From Owenia fusiformis (taxonomy: Eukaryota > Annelida > Polychaeta > Sabellida > Oweniidae), in NCBI GenBank assembly GCA_903813345.2, contig CAIIXF020000005.1, positions 11,537,375-11,601,374 of the forward strand: a stretch of 64,000 nt of DNA. Reading direction: 5' to 3'. A model generated the notes under the pieces. The model searched no databases, was not told the DNA's origin, and saw nothing but the letters and a program-made list of their open reading frames with translations. Both the position numbers and the translations under genes were made by a program. Positions 1,957 through 60,800 of the stretch are shown piece by piece; the stretch's first letter is position 1, and every line of letters begins with the position of its first letter.

Positions 1957-4900
1957 ATATGCACGCCGAGATGTTGCAGCTCTTGGGAAATTCAGTGTAA
2001 ACATATGTGGTTGTCCTAGAGCCTCTAAGTTCCCAGACATGTACACCACCCTTCTAGAACAGCTTTCAACTAAGGTATGTTGGCTTGTGAACCAAGATCC
2101 TTTAGACTCTCGGCAGTAATTATCCCATCGAACGAAGTTCGGAGGGATATAGGGAACGCCTCCGTCCGTCCGTCCAGGCAATAACTCAAATACCGTTGGC
2201 CCCGATTTTGTTCATATTTTATACACATATACCCTATGGGGGTAGAAGTTCTGCTCGAAAGCCGATTTTCAAAATAGCCGCTCATTTCAAAATGGCCAAA
2301 TTTACAGTAATTTAGGTGCAATATGTAAAACTGTAATAGTAATATGTTTTAGATGTAAAAAAATTATATAGGACATTAATAAAGCTAGAAATGTAGATAT
2401 TAAAGAAGCATATGGCAGCCATTTTGAAAAATGGCGGCCTTTACTTGTTATTTTACGATTTTTGCTGTAACTCGAAAAGTAGTGGAGCGATTTTGTTCAT
2501 ATTTGGTATGTGAATACTATAAACATTGCACACTGTCTAAAGACACTTTTGGTAGAAGGCGGCCATTTTAAAAAATGGCCCCCATTTAAACGTATTTTAC
2601 TATAACTCAAAAAGTAGTGGAGCGATTTTGTTCATATTTGGTATGTGAATACTGTAAGCTAGTGGTGCAACTCGCAAGAAAAATGCTACTCGAGTAGAAA
2701 GTGTGAAAATGCCACTGTAATCGAGTACCACTCGCAAAAATGAGGGAAAAATTAAAAAAAATTAAAAACTCACCTAGTCGACTGTTTAAAGACCAAATAG
2801 ATACAATTTCTTCGTTTCTTCTATATGTTATTGATGTTATATATAGTTTGTATCAATTTAGTGAGAATAAATGTAGTTATTCATGCCATAATTGTGTTTG
2901 TTTGTTTGTTTTTAAATATTTTCATTTTGTTTCCGGAATCGATACTTTGTTTCGTTCAGTGCATCCAAAAATGATCATTCCCGGGGTATGAGATCGTTGT
3001 TTGGGAATTCAATGAATACTCAAGTTTGAAAAAACGTACTCGAGTAACTATCTTGGACAGGTTCAACGAGTGAGTGGCGAGTACTGGTATTCGAGTTGCA
3101 CCACTACTGTAAGCATGGCACACTGTCTAATGACACTTTTGGTATAAGGCGGCCATTTTTCAAAATGGCCGGCATTTTAACGTATTTTACTATAACTCGA
3201 AAAGTAGTGGAACGATTTTGTTTATATTTGGTATGAAAATACTATAAGCACGGCACACTGTCTATTGTCTAATGGCACTTTTGGTAGAAGGTGGCCATTT
3301 TGAAAAATGGCCGCCATTTTAACATATTTTTTACTATAACTTGAAAAGTAGTGGAGAGATTTTGTTCATATTTGGTATGTGTATACTATATTATAAGCAT
3401 GGCACATGGTCTAATGGCACTTTTGGAAGAAGGCGGCCATTTTGAAAAATGGCTGCCATTTTTGCAATATACTTTGTTTGTAAAAATGCCATCCATGGCT
3501 GTTCGATGGGATTCGCTACGCTTTGGCGTTGCCGTTGTTCTGGTTTTTCATGTTTCTGTAAACTATTGTATTATCATAATTCTGTATTAGGAAATCCAAA
3601 ATGGTATCCTGATGTTGGGATTTGGAATAATTTCAAAGTATGGGCATTTTTTACTCAAATCAAGGTTCTTTAAAGTAGATCACAATTGCAGTTTTTATTT
3701 GCATACTTACTGTATGGTATTTGCTCTATTTCAAAGTGTTATATTGTTGTTTGTTCTGACTGGCATGTGTGCTTTTCTGTCTGGATGAATGGGCAGGCGG
3801 GTTCCACATAAATCTTGTCATCAAAACAAAAAAGAATTGCTTAACTTTCCTTTTTGCAAGAGCTGACTAATGCCAGGATCTGATTAGCTTTTGGGAATGC
3901 TGGGTAAATTACTTGGTGGGCATTTTAGATTCTTCAATAGCAAAAGAGCTATATTTAAGACTGTGTCTTGGTCTAATTTGTGCATTAGAAAATCCAAAAA
4001 GTTGTTTTCTCATTACAGATGTTCTGTTTAACAGATGTTCTGTTTCCTCATTATAGATGTTTTGGTTAACAGATGTTCTGTTTCCTCATTATAGATGTTT
4101 TGTTTTCCTATTACAGATGTTCTGTTTTCTCATTATAGATGTTCTGTTTTCCCATTACAGATGTTCTGTTTTCCCATTACAGATGTTCTGTTTTCTAATT
4201 ACAGATGTTCTGTTTAACAGATGTTCTGTTTCCTCATTATAGATGTTTTGTTTTCCTATTTCAGATGCTCTGTTTTCCCATTACAGATGTTCTGTTTTCT
4301 CATTACAGATGTTTTGTTTCCCCATTACAGATGTTCTGTTTTCTCATTACAGATGTTCTGTTTTCTCATTATAGATGTTCTGTTTTCCCATTACAGATGT
4401 TCTGTTTTCCCATTACAGATGTTCTGTTTAACAGATGTTCTGTTTCCTCATTATAGATGTTTTGTTTTCCTATTTCAGATGCTCTGTTTTCCTATTACAG
4501 ATGTTCTGTTTTCTCATTACAGATGTTTTGTTTCCCCATTACAGATGTTCTGTTTAACAGATGTTCTGTTTCCTCATTATAGATGTTTTGTTTTCCTATT
4601 TCAGATGCTCTGTTTTCCCATTACAGATGTTCTGTTTCCCCATTACAGATGTTCTGTTTTCTCATTACAGATGCTCTGTTTTCCCATTACTGATGTTCTG
4701 TTTCCCCATTACAAATGTTCTGTTTTCTCATTATAGATGCTCTGTTTTCCCATTACAGATGTTCTGTTTCCCCATTACAGATGTTCTGTTTCCTCATTAT
4801 AGATGTTTTGTTTTCCTATTACAGATGTTCTGTTTTCTCATTATAGATGTTCTGTTTTCCCATTACAGATGTTCTGTTTTCTCATTACAGATGTTCTGTT

Positions 4901-7780
4901 TCCTCATTATAGATGTTTTGTTTTCCTATTTCAGATGCTCTGTTTTCCCATTACAGATGTTCTGTTTTCTCATTACAGATGTTTTGTTTCCCCATTACAG
5001 ATGTTCTGTTTTCTTATTACAGATGTTCTGTTTTCTCATTATAGATGTTCTGTTTTCCCATTACAGATGTTGTTTTCCCATTACAGATGTTCTGTTTAAC
5101 AGATGTTCTGTTTCCTCATTATAGATGTTTTGTTTTCCTATTTCAGATGCTCTGTTTTCCTATTACAGATGTTCTGTTTTTCTCATTACAAATGTTTTGT
5201 TTCCCCATTACAGATGTTCTGTTTAACAGATGTTCTGTTTCCTCATTATAGATGTTTTGTTTTCCTATTTCAGATGCTCTGTTTTCCCATTACAGATGTT
5301 CTGTTTCCCCATTACAGATGTTCTGTTTTCTCATTACAGATGCTCTGTTTTCCCATTACAGATGTTCTGTTTCCCCATTACAGATGTTCTGTTTTCTCAT
5401 TATAGATGCTCTGTTTTCCCATTACAGATGTTCTGTTTCCCCATTACAGATGTTCTGTTTTCTCATTACAGATGTTCTGTTTCCCCATTACAGATGTTCT
5501 GTTTTCTCATTACAGATGTTTTGTTTTCTCATTACAGATGTTTTGTTTACTCATTACAGATGTTCTGTTTTCCTATGAAGATTGACAGTATGAACAACAT
5601 GAAGTTCTCACCTAAGAAAGACTACACGGCTAACAGGCTTATCAGTGGCATCTTGCAGCTGGCAGAGCAGACACTGCTTGTTATAGACGAAACAGTACTG
5701 GAGTCTGGGCAGCTTAATGCTAATGGTGGGTGCTAGACTGAGTTGATATAGGCTATTTTGTGCCATTGTAAAATTTTCCATTGTATCCATTAATTTATCA
5801 ATAGCCTAGATAACAAGAATATATATTGATACTTTTAAAAAAACATTCCTTGGAAAATACTCAATTTCAATTGAAATCCTTTTTTGGCAGAACATGAAAT
5901 ATGATAATTTGTTTGTAGGGATTGGGAATCTTGCTGCATTGGGAAATGTAGTGAACTGGCAGAAGGTTGAATATGACTTCAACTTCCATAAACAAGACTT
6001 CCCATGTAACATTGCGTGTCTTATTCTCTCTGAGGGGAAATCAATGATAAATGTAAGTATACTACCCGCCTCCAGAGCCCCCCCCCCCCCCTTCTCACAG
6101 GGTGCTCAAAATGGTGACCATTTTTATTGCAGAAAAATCAGGTTTTAAAGGTGCAACAAGTAGTGCAGAGGGGCCATTCAACGATTATGGACCAGTGTCA
6201 AAATATATTTAAGTTATATTTCATCAAGACTAACATCTATTTTTATTTTCTACAAAGAAACCCCCTAGATAATCATTATTTCAGCTTATATTCCTCTTGA
6301 AACATGGTGGATCATAAAAATATAAGTTTTCCAAGACAGGTGTCATACAGTCACAATATATACAATTTCAATTAATTACAAAATGACAACACCCAATAAC
6401 TTTCATGCTGGGTAGATACTGCTGTCTTGCTGCATGTAGAATGGTGTGGAATCATGGGTTATTCAGTCATCTCGTTCTTTCAAGACAAAAGTTTATGAAT
6501 CTATATACATGTATATGAATAATGTATATATACATGTACTTGTAATTGAACTTCATTTTTTGCAGTCTGACTTCCTAATGCCCATGTCTCTACAATGGAA
6601 TGAAGAAAGCCTACCTGAGAAATTTTCAGCAATTGAGAGTTTCTTAACCCCTGCATTGTTAACTAAATTGAGAACATATCTAACGGCAGTGCAGTTCATT
6701 GAATATACATTGACTGATGATGTTCAAAAGGTAATACAGTTAAACCTAAATAGATGAATACATTAACATACAACAAAGAGAGTTTAGTTTCAACCATTCA
6801 GTTTACATACAGGGGTTGGCCCAAGGTTAATGTGAGCAGTTTGTCAAAATGACATCATGGACCGGTTGCCATGTTATTTTCCTATGCCTACTCAAAAAAT
6901 CAACTTGTTCGTATCAAAAGTGACCTGGCAAATGCCCAGTGGACCAGTCTTTAGTTCAAGCCCTGTTTACATATAAATTATTGTCTGTATTCAGTCAGTA
7001 TGTTATTTGTTTATTTTATGGTCTCTACAATCAGTTTGAAATGCATTTCTTAACTGTTCTTTTGAAAGTTTAGAAATATGAATACCTCAGACCGTAACAT
7101 TTTTATTTATTTTTTAAATGGGTCTCATATTAAAAAGATTCTGGCTATACTCCACTTGTTAACTACATTAGTGAAATATCATTAACTCAAATAATTTCAG
7201 ACAATAGAGGAAGATTTTGTTGAGCTCCGAAAAGCAGATGCTGCCACCTTTACAGTGGATGACTTTCACCGTCTCCTGACATTGGCAAGGTGAGTTGAAG
7301 GAACATACATTCACTTTATTCATGTTATGAAACACATGATTTAACCAGTTATCATACATAGGGACATATCTATGGAGTGCAGAAATAAAGAAAACACAAA
7401 ATCGCTTAAAATATTAAAGGTCTTTAAGTACCTTCTATAAAATTATTATTTTGAATGGCTAAAACAATCTGAGAAGCAATAAGGTGTTTACTAACTTATT
7501 TCGTTTATATTGAAATGACCTCAAATAGGGTTTTCGCAAAAAAAAGTGTTCCAGAATTTATATAAGGAAAGACCTCTTAGCACAAGATTTCAATCTTTGT
7601 TTTTATTAACTATTGAATTTTTATGGAGAAATAACAGCAGCAATTTTTATTTGCAGGTACTTGTCCCTAAGTCAAGGCCAAGCAACACTCACCATCGAGA
7701 CCTGGGAGCATGCGAAGCTTCTAGAACAAGAGCGCAAGAAGCGAGTTGCAAGCCTACCCAGGACAAGTGTCATATCATGA
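1957..7780 (+). CDS. MCMBP: MCM complex-binding protein, C-terminal exons (5' exons not in window)
   Basis: Six exons: 1957-2074, 5560-5725, 5919-6052, 6566-6730, 7201-7289 and 7657-7780 (TGA). All junctions are GT-AG with consistent phases. The product matches the C-terminal third of MCMBP: YARRDVAALGKF in the first visible exon, KKDYTANRL in the second, then NVVNWQKVEYDFNFH, FPCNIACLILSEGKS and, at the end, YLSLSQGQATLT. MCMBP binds MCM3-7 in the nucleus, supports assembly of nascent MCM hexamers and helps unload them late in S phase. About 280 residues are visible; vertebrate MCMBP has about 640. The N-terminal exons should lie upstream, but a minus-strand TIR gene occupies 1-490, so either that gene is nested or this locus is rearranged. 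The intron 2075-5559 holds a transposon cluster and a large array built from its own 3' splice site. Confidence 0.93.
2100..3475. repeat. tandem intronic repeat with GGCCGCCATTTT motif, split by a hAT element
   Basis: The left end carries GAACGAAGTTCGG and a run of TCCG repeats. It is followed by four diverged units of about 134-144 bp, each with a GTAGTGG-AGCGATTTTG core and a palindromic AAAATGGC/GCCATTTT segment. The internal CTGTAAGC was the target of the hAT insertion at 2660-3106. The head motif is a type I associate with molluscan repeats. Confidence 0.7.
2660..3106 (+). mobile_element. hAT-type MITE, copy 1
   Basis: It has perfect terminal inverted repeats, TAGTGGTGCAACTCG and its complement, flanked by the 8-bp duplication CTGTAAGC at 2652-2659 and 3107-3114. 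It is 447 bp long and non-coding. A near-identical copy in the opposite orientation lies at 25559-26000. The 8-bp duplication and end sequence are typical of hAT elements; no transposase is encoded, so it must have moved in trans. Confidence 0.9.
4003..5575 (+). repeat. 22-bp minisatellite made of MCMBP 3' splice sites
   Basis: About 70 head-to-tail units run up to the MCMBP exon at 5560. Each unit holds a pyrimidine stretch, TTACAG (or TTATAG/TTTCAG), then ATGTTCTG. Shorter 16-bp variants end in TTTAACAG. The last unit is the real junction: ...ATTACAG followed by exon bases ATGTTCTGTTTTCCTATG. Including those bases makes the protein here the same length as human MCMBP as I recall it, so the unit is intron end plus exon start. 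Three units (66 bp) restore frame, and the MCMBP frame stays open leftwards from 5560 to 5230, exactly 15 units. Confidence 0.92.
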
Positions 7781-8892: not shown

Positions 8893-9495
8893 AATATGTA
8901 CACTACAGTTATTTATGCCAATGGTAGTTCACATATCCACAATACAATTATTTATGCCAATGGTAGTTCACATATGTACCCTACAGTTATTTATGCCAAT
9001 GGTAGTTCACATATGTATCATACAGTTATTTATACTCATGGTAGTTCACATATGTATCATACAGTTATTTATGCCAATGGTAGTTCACATATGTACCATA
9101 CAGTTATTTATGCCAATGGTAGTTCACATATGTATGATACAGTTATTTATACTAATGGTAGTTCACATATGTATCATACAGTTATTTATGCCAATGGTAG
9201 TTCACATATGTATCATACAGTTATTTATGCCAATGGTAGTTCACATATGTACCATACAATTATCTATGCCAATGGTAGTTCACATATGTACCATACAGTT
9301 ATTTATGCCAATGGTAGTTCACATATGTACCGTACAGTTATTTATGCCAATGGTAGTTCACATATGTACCCTACAGTTATTTATGCCAATGGTAGTTCAC
9401 AAATGTACCATACACTTATTTGTGCCAATGGTAGTTCACATTGTACCATACAGTTATTTATGCCAATGGTAGTTCACAAATGTACCCTACAAGTG
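8893..9495 (-). repeat. 39-bp minisatellite made from the lectin gene's final codons and stop
   Basis: About 15 units of 39 bp. Read on the minus strand each unit contains GGTACATATGTGAACT, ACCATTGGCATAA, then ATAACTGTAT. The right-most unit is the true end of the lectin coding sequence (GYICELPLA then TAA at 9458-9460). The remaining copies fill the 3' UTR. Because 39 is divisible by 3, the array is also open on the plus strand, giving a meaningless 13-residue repeat. Confidence 0.9.
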
Positions 9496-54800: not shown

Positions 54801-57800
54801 TGAATTACGAAATAGTACGTTGCTAAGTATATAAGGGGGATAATCAGCAATAAAGGCAAAAAAGGAGAAAAGGATCTCGAGAAACAACATCTACTGTTGA
54901 GGACTATTGTATATCATTATGGACATCACAGTTTCTTGGTTCCTAGCATTGACTATCGTGCAGGTAAGCACAATTTCATACTTTTATACTCAGTTATACA
55001 AATTAAGTTTAGCTTGTCATCATTTTGGTCATTGTTTGTAATTTCATTGACATTGGAGAGATTATGGGCTTTCAAGAGATCTTCTTGAAAGCCCATAAAG
55101 AGACTGTCAATCACTCGAGGGATAATGCAAAACAGCCAGCCAAAATAGTATCACACTTTAGGCAATCTGTAAAAATGAGTGAACTGTTAAGATAATATGA
55201 TGATAATGGGCATCTATATAAGATGCTTTTAAAAATGTTAAACGATTTTCAATGTGTTTTTTCAATTTTTTTTTATTAAAATCAATGTATTGATGTTTGT
55301 GTCAATCAATGTAGGAATGTCTGATTAAAGATAAAGCTAGGATAAATTCATTGTTTTAATTGCATATACATTTTATTTTAAAGTGAGTAATACAATAAAG
55401 GAATAGGTCACCATTATGCAGGACAGGTGTAGAACACAGACATAATGGTTCTTTTTATTGATACATGTCTAAGAAATGTCCCAATGTATGAGACTTTTCA
55501 ACCAAATCACCATTTTTAAATTTCAGGTTGTGTATGCATTCACAACAGTATCTAGTAATATTGCTGAAAAAATCCCAACTGAAGTTCTGAAAGACACAAT
55601 AATGCCAACTGATGCTCTGGAAGACACAATGATGTCAACTGATGCTCTGGGAGACACAATGATGTCAACTGATGTTCTGGAAGACACGATGATGTCAACT
55701 GATGTTCTAGAAAACACAATGATGTCAACTGATGCTCTGGAAGACACAATGATGTCAACTGATGTTCTGGAAAACACAATGATGTCAACTGATGCTCTTG
55801 AAGACACAATGATGTCAACTGATGTTCTGGAAGACACGATGATGTCAATTGATGTTCTAGAAAACACAACAATGTCAACTGATGTTCTGAAAAACGTAAA
55901 AATGGCAACTGGTTTTCTGGAAGATACAACATTTACAATAAATGATGACAACATTCAAGGTCTTAATAATACCAGTGAATCACTATCAAATAAGCATCAA
56001 TTACAAGTCGATAATGAGACATTAAACGGCAGAAACATGTCAAACAAACACAGTAATAATCGCTCTAATTCAACAACAATTAACCCCACTGGGATCACTC
56101 TTTCAACAGAAGAAAAGCGCATTAAGACATTTATTGGAGCATTTCTTTCAATTGTTGGTATACTGGCAAACATTACAGTAATTTGCGCTATTGCAATGTC
56201 ATACAAACAATTAAACAAAAAATATCTTCTAATTTTGAGCATCATGATGTGTAACTTAATGACAACTGGTATCTTAACTCCATTATATCTTGTCAATTTA
56301 CACCATTCTATTCTGAGCTCAAGTGAAGTATTTTGTAACATGTTTGCAATGGGTTACACTTTATCCACTGTTATATCATTTGGTTCTTATGTTCTCATGA
56401 GTATTTATCTATTTGTAGATTTGGGTGATTTCACCGAGAGAAAACATAAAGCAATTATTGTTAGTTTAGTACTACTTTGGATACTTGGTATAGGTGGAGT
56501 TGTCATCAATGGCCTGATTATAGGAGCCACCTATTTGCCAAAACAGGAAATATGTATTTTGAATCCAGTAGTGGGATTTATTGATAAAGATCATGATTTT
56601 GAGGAATTACATTTTAAACAGGAGCTCGTATGTGTAATTTCATTGATGATAATCATTCTAGTAAGTGGTATTCTGTATATAAAAACAAAGTTTTTGCAAA
56701 ATCGTTTGATTCAACTTGAAAAAACGAGTACTCGTAGAATTTTTGACAAGTTTGCCAACAAAACAGTATCTCTTAAGTTCGATACAACAATGAATGAGAA
56801 TGAAATTCAAATACAAGTACAGAATTTAGAACAAAATAGGCGGAATGTCAGAATTGGTGTTTCACATTTTCTGAAAAACTATACACAGACATATGCGATT
56901 CTTTTTACAATATTTGTGATATGTAATTTACCATTTTTTATTTTTGCAACTCTTGAGCCAAAGATGCCTGAAATCCCCACCTATTTGTTCAAACTACTCT
57001 TATTACTAAGGTGGTGTAGCTGCATTATTCACCCTATTGTTTATGGATTAAGATTTACAACATTACGGAGGGCAATTATTCGTCTCAAATTAGTACTTTG
57101 CCAGAATATGTAAGAACCGTATATGATTTTCCTTAAACATGTTCTTCAACGTCCTGTTTAGTAAAATAAAGGTTGTGAAAAGAAGAAGAAAATTTTTTTT
57201 TGTCATATACAATTTAACAAACAACAATTATCAGGGAGCTCTTTACTCATTAGCTACCACACTCATTACCCAATGCACTCATTACCTACCACACTCATTA
57301 TCCAATGCACTCATTAACTGATGCACTCATTACCTACTTCACTCATTCCCTGCACTCATTAACCGATGCACTCATTACCTACCACACTCATTAACTGATG
57401 CAGTCATTAACTACCACACTCATTATCCAATGCACTCATTAACTGGTGCACTCATAACCTACCACACTCATTAGCTGATGCACTCATTACCTACCACACT
57501 CATTAACTGATGCAGTCATTAACTACCACACTCATTATCCAATGCACTCATTAACTGATGCACTCATTACCTACTTCACTCATTCCCTGCACTCATTAAC
57601 CAATGCACTCATAACCTACCACACTCATTAACTGATGCAGTCATTAACTGATGTAGTCATTAACTACCACACTCATTATCCAATGCACTCATTAACTGAT
57701 GCACTCATTATCTACTTCACTCATTCCCTGCTCTCATTAACCGATGCACTCATTACCTACCACACTCATAAACTGATGCACTCATTAACTACCACACTCA

Positions 57801-60800
57801 TTATCCAATGCACTCATTAACTGATGCACTCATTACCTACTTCACTCATTCCCTGCACTCATTAACCAATGCACTCATTACCTACCACACTCATAAACTG
57901 ATGCACTCATTAACTACCATACTCATTATCAAATGCACTCATTAACTGATGCAGTCATTAACTACCACACCCATTATCCAATGCACTCATTAACTGATGC
58001 ATTCATTAACTACCACACCCATTATCCAATGCACTCATTAACTGATGCACTCATTACCCACTTCACTCATTCCCTGCACTCATTAACTGATGCACTCATT
58101 ACCTACCACACTCATTATCCAATCCACTCATTAACTGATGCAGTCATTAACTACCACACCCATTATCCAATGCACTCATTAACTGATGCACTCATTACCT
58201 ACTTCACTCATTCCCTGCACTCATTAACTGATGCACTCATTACCTACCACACTCATTATCCAATCCACTCATTAACTGATGCAGTCATTAACTACCACAC
58301 CCATTATCCAATGCACTCATTAACTGATGCACTCATTACCAACTTCACTCATTCCCTGCTCTCATTAACCGATGCACTCATTACCTACCACACTCATAAA
58401 CTGATGCACTCATTAACTACCACACCAATTATCCAATGCACTCATTAACTGATGCACTCATTACCTACTTCACTCATTCCCTGCACTCATTAACTGATGC
58501 ACTCATTACCTACCACACTCATTATCCTATCCACTCATTTACTGATGCACTCATTACCTACCACACTCATTTTCCAATGAACTCATTAACTGATGCACTC
58601 ATTACCTACTTCACTCATTTTCCAATGCACTCATTAACTGATGCACTCATTACCTACCACACTCATTACCCGATCCACTCATTAACTGATGCACTCATTA
58701 CCTACCACACTCATTATCCTATCCACTCATTTACTGATGCACTCATTACCTACCAAACTCATTTTCCAATGCACTCATTAACTGATGCACTCATTACCTA
58801 CTAAATTCATTCACTGAACTTATTATCTTTTGCAAAACACTTTCATCTTTTACTCAAAATTATATGTTATTTTATTTTATGTGCTACTTTCATTTTTTCA
58901 AAGATTCTGTTTTTCTTTCCCTCAAAATGTCCAATACATGTTAGGGGTAGAATATAACAAGGTCATTCTGCCCATCACGTTTCATAGTGAGTACATGAAA
59001 TATTCACTCAATATAAACCAAACATACAGAACAAATCATTAACTAGTCTAATAATATACATATCTTAAAAAAAGAAAAAGTGACTCTTAAAATGCTGTAG
59101 CACAACACATTAATCTGTAATATTTTATAAAATGTAAATAAGATGTAAATACAAGACAATTCCATAAATATGTACATAGTTATGTTTAATTGCAATCTAC
59201 TCAAAAATGCTTTACATATTGGAGTAACAAGGAATTGAAATGACAAAATGTTATCACCTAGTTGCTCACAAGATTATGGTCAGGATATCAACTCAGAAAA
59301 TGTCATAAAATTTGTAATGTCGGAAAAAACAACAATCACACATATGATTAAAATAAAAATGACATGTTACAATCAAGAGAATAATAAGCAATATAGCATG
59401 TTAGAAATTGCCTTACTTTTCTTTGCCTTCTCCCACTGCTACTATACGTTGGTTGTCACTTGACCAAGCCAAATCGCAAACTTTGCCCGCAAAAGGTGTA
59501 AACTCATTTTTCAAAATATGCTCCTTGTTCACTGTATCCCAGATTCTGACCTTCCCAGAGGTATCTGAAATAACAATGTTCAGTAAAACCTGTCTTAGTG
59601 AACACCTCTCTCTGGTGAACACCTCTCTCTGGTGAACACCTGTGTTAAGTGAACACCACTTCAAGACACATTTTACATTGATTTCTGTATTAAATCCCCT
59701 ACCTGTAGTGAACACCTACCTATAGTGAACACCTACCTACAGTGAACACTTATTTGTGGCTCTATAGGTATTCAGTATATACAGGTTTTACTGTATAATG
59801 TTTGTTGAGATAATGATAAACTTACCCAGACAAATATTGAGAAGCACCAATATGCTTTGGAAAAGTCATGATAATTAATATATTGTTTTGAAATCTTTAA
59901 ATAAATGTGATTTAAATGTAAGCATTCTTTGTGTAGAATGACACTGTAAGTAAAAGTAAATTCTCTTAATGATAAATCACCAATGGAATATGCAATTCTG
60001 GAAGAGTGCACTTTGGCATCCTCCGACCACAGGGCTCCAGACATCATTCACTACATTCCTTCCTTCTTTCAAGGAAGGAGGAGTTCTGGAGGCCTGTTTT
60101 CAGATGATGGCTCTTTTACAGCTGTGCATTGACAATGAACTGCCTTGAATTGGATTTTTTAACTTAAAAGTTAACTTCCGTTTTATCGAAATGAGAAACA
60201 GGGGTCTTTGAATTCACTTTCATAGATATTTGAAAAATTGAACATCAGAGAAGGTGTAAGACTACCAATCATCACAAAAGCCAGAAAACATATTTTGTCA
60301 ACCATTTTTTCACTTCCATTGTACAGAGTTCCTTTATCATAATATTCAATGAGAACAGAAGTTAAAACACCTGCTACACGAATAGTTCAACCAAGGTGCT
60401 ACCAACATGTGTTAACTTATATATTATTACCCATTTATTACTTAATATGTCAATGTCACGTAGTGCACTGTAGTCTTGAATGTATGATAATGATTGAGAA
60501 ATATATGACCTCAAAATTGAGGCTTTTCACTATGTATTTTAAAACTTTATTTTTAACAGACATGATCTCTACGTGTCTGTTTTACTAAATATATTTTAAC
60601 AGGGGATTCACAGAATGTCTGGTCTATTTAACCTTTTGGTTTACATGTATGTAATCTGAGGGTTGATCCAAAAGTAATGCTCCTGCTCCACATACCTCGT
60701 TGTCATGTTGCTATGGTAACCAGACACCTCTGTTACTAGTAAAATTTATTGCTTATTTTTACACAAAATGAAACGGCCAAATATGAACAGTATTCATAAA

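Follow-up and report, generated by a model that had tools for sequence, protein, structure and literature searches.

Tandem repeats whose unit extends across an exon-intron boundary into the exon, and many copies of which carry splice signals, have been described under the name of mirages. They were previously known from a few genes of amphioxus, namely Adh3 and the globin genes BflGb6 and BflGb9 (PMC3087553), and PGBD5 and troponin C have also been cited for them (PMC3902484). According to these descriptions, both 5' and 3' boundaries are affected and the length of the arrays is variable (PMC3087553), the Adh3 units, as cited in the same paper, range over 10-72 bp, and the Adh3 data together with RT-PCR of the globins suggest that regular splicing is undisturbed by the repeats (PMC3087553; PMC3902484). 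A related phenomenon is reported from human segmental duplications, where internal tandem repeats average four copies of 30 bp and many are kept in alternative transcripts (PMC2812944).

Here we describe a tandem array at a splice acceptor of the MCMBP gene in the annelid Owenia fusiformis. By its structure, this array is a mirage, and thus of a known kind. As in the published accounts of amphioxus, its tandem units span the boundary, many of them carry splice signals, and in the annelid, too, 3' and 5' boundaries are affected. What is new is the scale: 72 decoy boundaries lie before a single MCMBP acceptor, whereas BflGb6 is described with 6 and 3 units in two haplotypes; the same gene carries a second array; 23 of 430 sampled exon edges are affected; and the host is an annelid, whereas the described hosts are cephalochordates, the comparison being one with published descriptions. 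The array shares with NAGNAG and other close tandem acceptors that several AGs compete for one exon, but the AGs are spaced 16-23 nt apart over 1.5 kb and not 3 nt apart. Recursive splice sites read AG/GT, whereas the units read AG/ATG; GTRAGT, GTAAG and GTGAG each occur 0 times in the array, which should therefore make no internal exon. The human internal tandem repeats resemble it as minisatellite expansions at a boundary that are able to alter gene structure, but the MCMBP copies are intronic and precede an apparently conserved exon. Among the papers listed in our literature searches, none had a title or abstract opening that described the MCMBP array or a genome-wide survey of such arrays, and no paper combining 'Owenia fusiformis' and 'minisatellite' was found in the literature searched.

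The MCMBP gene and its 22-bp array

The window, i.e. the whole stretch of 64,000 nucleotides that was analyzed, contains six MCMBP exons on the plus strand, delimited by exon joining and by similarity to the Pfam family MCM_bind. The exon upstream of the array (1957-2074, 118 bp) ends at a donor gtatgt at 2075 and is followed, as judged from splice dinucleotides and exon joining, by an intron of 3485 nt (2075-5559) with the array at its 3' end. Next come the exon at 5560-5725, whose first 17 nt are unit-like and whose limits draw also on the Pfam test and the unit comparison presented below, then those at 5919-6052, 6566-6730 and 7201-7289, and the last coding exon (7657-7780), which ends in TGA. 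Joined in one frame, the six exons yield a single MCM_bind match of 320.1 bits covering profile positions 323-577 of 577. A search of the genome with the same family gave seven matches, all at one locus on C5, where exons further upstream account for positions 13-111 and 200-323 of the profile, leaving 112-199 without a match in this search. Since all matches fall at one locus and the exons share one frame, the array ends an intron of an apparently single-copy, working MCMBP gene. No solved structure related to the MCMBP segment was returned at E values up to 1, no Rfam match in the window reached the gathering score, and a search of the assembly for COX1 gave no match.

Tandem Repeats Finder (TRF) describes the array within the window as 73.3 copies with a period of 22 at 4003-5572 (score 1990). 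Split at the unit starts, it resolves into a left partial unit of 17 bp, TTGTTTTCTCATTACAG (4002-4018, plus strand), which may be the remnant of the founding intron end, and 72 complete units of intron-end and exon-start sequence (4019-5559, plus strand), 63 of which measure 22 bp, 7 measure 16 bp, and one each 20 and 23 bp. This agrees with a reading of the window from sequence only, which had counted about 70 tandem 22-bp units before the MCMBP exon. The same sequence-only reading placed splice signals in every unit, which is slightly too strong. AG is present at 70 of the 73 unit boundaries, the authentic one included, and hence at 69 of the 72 decoy boundaries (starts 4019 to 5538), the exceptions being units -41 (ACTG), -40 (ACAA) and -18 (ACAA); the 16-bp units end in TTTAACAG or GTTAACAG, and ATGTTCTG is variable among the units, appearing as ATGCTCTG and ATGTTTTG.

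An exact 30-bp pattern taken from the array has 12 matches in the whole assembly, all of them within the window, and the reversed control has none. Internally, a block of 26 units occurs twice (window 4221-5449), the copies lying 31 units apart with 21 of the 26 units identical. Three of the four substitutions that followed the duplication of this block fall on the acceptor AG; the number is small and the observation post hoc, and it gives a hint that would fit a mild cost of the decoys. A DSL match of the peptide encoded by the array (24.6 bits) was weak and was judged spurious.

Position of the exon start

A 130-residue segment that includes the unit-like residues MFCFPMK scores 183.1 bits against MCM_bind, and the score falls to 161.5 bits when these residues are deleted, to 171.5 when they are replaced by seven X, and to 173.6 when they are scrambled. 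The segment spans 132 profile positions, leaving about two unmatched, which is fewer than any unit. The unit-like residues thus score in the family profile, indicating that the unit includes true exon sequence. The nucleotide comparison shows the same relationship at the level of the units: none of the 72 is identical to the exon over its first 17 nt, but 16 of these positions agree in 17 units and 15 of them in 31 units, and 23 units match the first 13 nt exactly.

These results bear out the proposal that the unit consists of the end of the intron and the start of the exon. From the deletion, masking and scrambling scores, the exon most likely begins at 5560 rather than at 5581, with the AG at 5558-5559 as the probable authentic acceptor and the last unit boundary, 5559/5560, as the real junction, as had been read from the sequence. 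The alternative considered in that reading, an exon beginning after the AG at 5580, is disfavored by the same losses in score.

Decoy acceptors

If decoys were spliced to the exon, few of them would leave the protein intact. Of the 70 boundaries with an AG, 48 are out of frame, and every one of these leads to a stop; another 16 keep the frame but are interrupted by a stop, and the remaining 6, the authentic acceptor among them, are both in frame and open. A frameshift or a stop would therefore follow from 64 of the 69 AG-bearing decoys. The five that are in frame and open, -3, -6, -9, -12 and -15, would start the exon at 5494, 5428, 5362, 5296 and 5230, respectively, and all lie within the last 15 units (5230-5559, plus strand). 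That the MCMBP frame is open through exactly these 15 units was correctly noted earlier, but it is not special, because a second frame is open over nearly the same stretch (5252-5578, 108 aa), and we rejected selection for an open 15-unit frame on this ground.

The decoys are also similar to the authentic site in the signals compared. The authentic acceptor has 13 pyrimidines among 18 positions and the 69 AG-bearing decoys have a mean of 13.61, with 61 of the 69 equal to or better than the authentic site. A stronger authentic acceptor was thus rejected as the basis of the choice, and the description of dozens of equivalent acceptors before this exon holds. To scan for branch points we took yUnAy words and the first AG at a distance of at least 12 nt, following the rule that an AG closer than 12 nt to the branch point is passed over (PMC1431707). 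Of the 41 such words in the array region, 25 would be served by this rule with an AG at a distance of 28 nt, and the same distance separates the authentic AG from the only candidate that serves it under this rule, a CTCAT at 5528-5532 (plus strand) with its A at 5531. By these two simple measures, the authentic site is set apart by its position, and neither by its strength nor by its branch point.

Splice-junction arrays elsewhere in the genome

The MCMBP gene carries a second array, in which a 34-bp unit is repeated 16.3 times on the donor of the exon that precedes the exon at 1957-2074 (L005:5763-6319, corresponding to C5:11534662-11535218). Its unit repeats the end of the exon and the donor GTAAGT, and the GT is kept in 14 of the 15 located decoys, while other donor positions have been lost in some. 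Two MCMBP introns also hold similar repeats of 140-150 bp with GGCGGCCATTTT words (window 3114-3462 and L005:4268-4977), perhaps a dispersed element.

To estimate how frequent such arrays are, we surveyed all kinesin (PF00225) and MCM (PF00493) matches listed in the genome, counting once the 18 kinesin matches that fall within one 159-bp array. The matches approximate exons, and some cross introns. Arrays spanning the junction were found at 15 of the 155 matches listed, 12 at acceptors and 3 at donors. A replicate with the CCT family (PF00118), for which the set of 60 matches was fixed before inspection, gave 8 of the 60 listed, 4 at acceptors and 4 at donors. The combined survey amounts to 23 of the 215 exon matches listed, or 23 of 430 edges (about 5%); these frequencies are estimates, because the matches are conserved segments and not annotated exons, were drawn from listed candidates, and were finally called by judgement. 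Going by this sample, splice-junction arrays are strikingly common in this genome, and we regard how often they seem to occur as a larger finding than the MCMBP array itself.

Several candidates were set aside. Three (L074, L097 and L048) were simple sequence, judged from the unit; one (L035) lay outside the profile match; L087, L133 and the donor-side entry of L040 had no clear unit carrying the junction; in L127 a simple repeat precedes the acceptor; and one L129 entry was a second listing of the same array. L125, with two copies of 30 bp, was retained and is the weakest array counted. Such arrays occur in a kinesin gene on the minus strand (L051:346-3189), where 17.9 copies of 159 bp each contain an acceptor and about 130 bp of exon, and in an MCM-family gene, also on the minus strand (L049:1647-2792), with 8 copies of 129 bp that contain the acceptor and about 88 bp of exon; in the latter, 6 of the 8 decoys carry a TAG that is absent from the real exon. 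On another MCM-family exon, which we take to be part of MCM7, the junction array consists of three copies of 54 bp.

The arrays near exons are neither visibly kept off the junction nor drawn to it, since coverage on and off the junction is similar. Among the 155 matches listed, arrays cover the start of 13, and the figures for points 150 nt and 300 nt upstream of the start are 14 and 13; they cover the end of 5, against 6 at a point 150 nt downstream of it and 8 at 300 nt. Across 17 arrays, the CCT arrays being left out, AG or GT is retained in 139 of 145 located decoys, where 118.8 would be predicted from other near-junction dinucleotides; in this rough comparison, made against the authentic copy, there is no purge of decoy sites. 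With respect to frame, the nearest accepted decoy lies at a distance divisible by three in 8 of the 22 other arrays, which is the level of chance, and this decoy is out of frame or stopped in 18 of the 22 and in frame and open in 4; in L124, the twenty-third array, no intact decoy was found. The automatic walk along the decoys located 1 of about 11 in L064, and in L131 the accepted decoy lies 123 nt away and is not the next unit.

Other repeats were observed in the window. At 8894-9491, 15.4 copies of 39 bp seem to border directly on the donor of an exon that belongs to the next gene and lies on the minus strand; at 55576-55929, a 30-bp repeat with 11.8 copies apparently lies within a coding exon; and at 57245-58825, a 16-bp array of about 99 copies has a higher-order period of 141 bp, with a GC skew of -0.334 in the 4-kb window around it.

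Origin of the array and choice of the acceptor

To account for these observations, we propose to regard the array as a splice-junction minisatellite of the mirage type, in which the last copy is authentic and the others are decoys, with the copy proximal to the exon being picked through exon definition and arrays of this nearly harmless sort accumulating; we consider this explanation highly probable. A segment straddling the end of the intron and the first bases of the exon would have been duplicated in tandem, probably seeded by two short direct copies of TGTTTTC, one on either side of the old junction at a spacing of 22 bp, and would then have expanded by slippage or unequal exchange. TGTTTTC is found at -16 and +6, 22 nt apart, common to the left partial unit and the head of the exon, and of the lags 14-30 of the collapsed junction, 22 gives the best self-match (10 of 16); this test has a circular element, since the construction itself puts the left partial unit in register. 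The last copy, still joined to the rest of the exon, would serve as the authentic acceptor, as protein-family scoring supports; the spliceosome would most likely take this copy, paired with the site across the exon, and the decoys would be removed with the intron. Since most decoys are intact and resemble the authentic site in pyrimidine content, the choice is not accounted for by site strength as far as we measured it, and since the arrays would be nearly harmless, they could accumulate to about 5% of the sampled edges.

Exon definition also carries an expectation about intron length. Where the flanking introns are long, the sites nearest to each other across the exon are reported to be favored, according to a study that combined database analysis with reporter tests (PMC9225289). 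Among the 304 of 430 edges with a neighboring match within 20 kb, arrays occur at 3 of 134 with a gap under 500 nt and at 11 of 170 with a longer one (Fisher p = 0.10), and one array sits in a gap of 207 nt. The expectation is thus weakly borne out, and the arrays themselves lengthen introns. Further considerations weigh against our explanation: it is protein conservation that points to use of the last acceptor, a model in which sites transcribed first are used first would favor the upstream acceptors, and the substitutions that hit AGs in the duplicated block give a small, post hoc hint that decoys have a cost.

This last hint is what one would expect if the number of copies were to set the dose of MCMBP, with a fraction of the transcripts spliced to decoys and most of these containing a stop and being sent to decay, and the premature stops that would follow from 64 of the 69 AG-bearing decoys also speak for such a rheostat; however, 69 of the 72 decoy AGs are still present, and amphioxus mirages are described as leaving splicing undisturbed (PMC3087553), so that we consider it unlikely. 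The use of decoys could also yield MCMBP isoforms with 22, 44, 66, 88 or 110 extra residues, for which the five acceptors -3 to -15 that are in frame and open, together with the 25 of 41 branch-point-like words that would serve an AG 28 nt away, provide the means. Only 5 of the 69 AG-bearing decoys qualify, though, an insert would interrupt an MCM_bind match that is continuous through the junction (254 residues to 255 profile positions), and the other arrays show no preference for frame (8 of 22). Functional isoforms with 22-residue insertions, as suggested by the sequence-only reading, are thus possible from five decoys but find no support in the multiples of three elsewhere, and we think them very unlikely. 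An ordinary intronic minisatellite that merely abuts the exon might be expected where tandem repeats are common, as they are in the window, for which TRF lists 50 rows when overlapping ones are counted, but the first 17 nt of the exon are unit-like and encode residues that score in MCM_bind, and we give this explanation almost no credence.

Implications

The presence of these arrays in an annelid indicates that mirages are not confined to cephalochordates. In agreement with such a host, the genome has three matches above the cut-off to Eryth_link_C (PF16915), an annelid family. Each array is a natural competition experiment, with 73 near-identical acceptor boundaries in one MCMBP intron and 16 near-identical donors in the intron before it, differing mainly in their position. 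If only the copy proximal to the exon is used, this would support a proximity rule of exon definition over a kinetic choice or the choice of the first AG. Should their frequency in the genome match that in the sample (23 of 430 edges), the arrays would mislead gene models, and the published proposal that introns arise from mirages could be tested on many of them.

More tentatively, and with somewhat less than even confidence, we suggest that an annelid genome has, independently of lancelets, a genome-wide process that repeatedly duplicates splice junctions in tandem, with about 1 in 10 of the sampled exons of conserved genes carrying a decoy array at an edge. Such arrays may be tolerated because exon definition ignores the copies that lie farther from the exon. 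If such a process is indeed at work, the arrays would provide raw material for the growth of introns, for intron sliding and for new introns.
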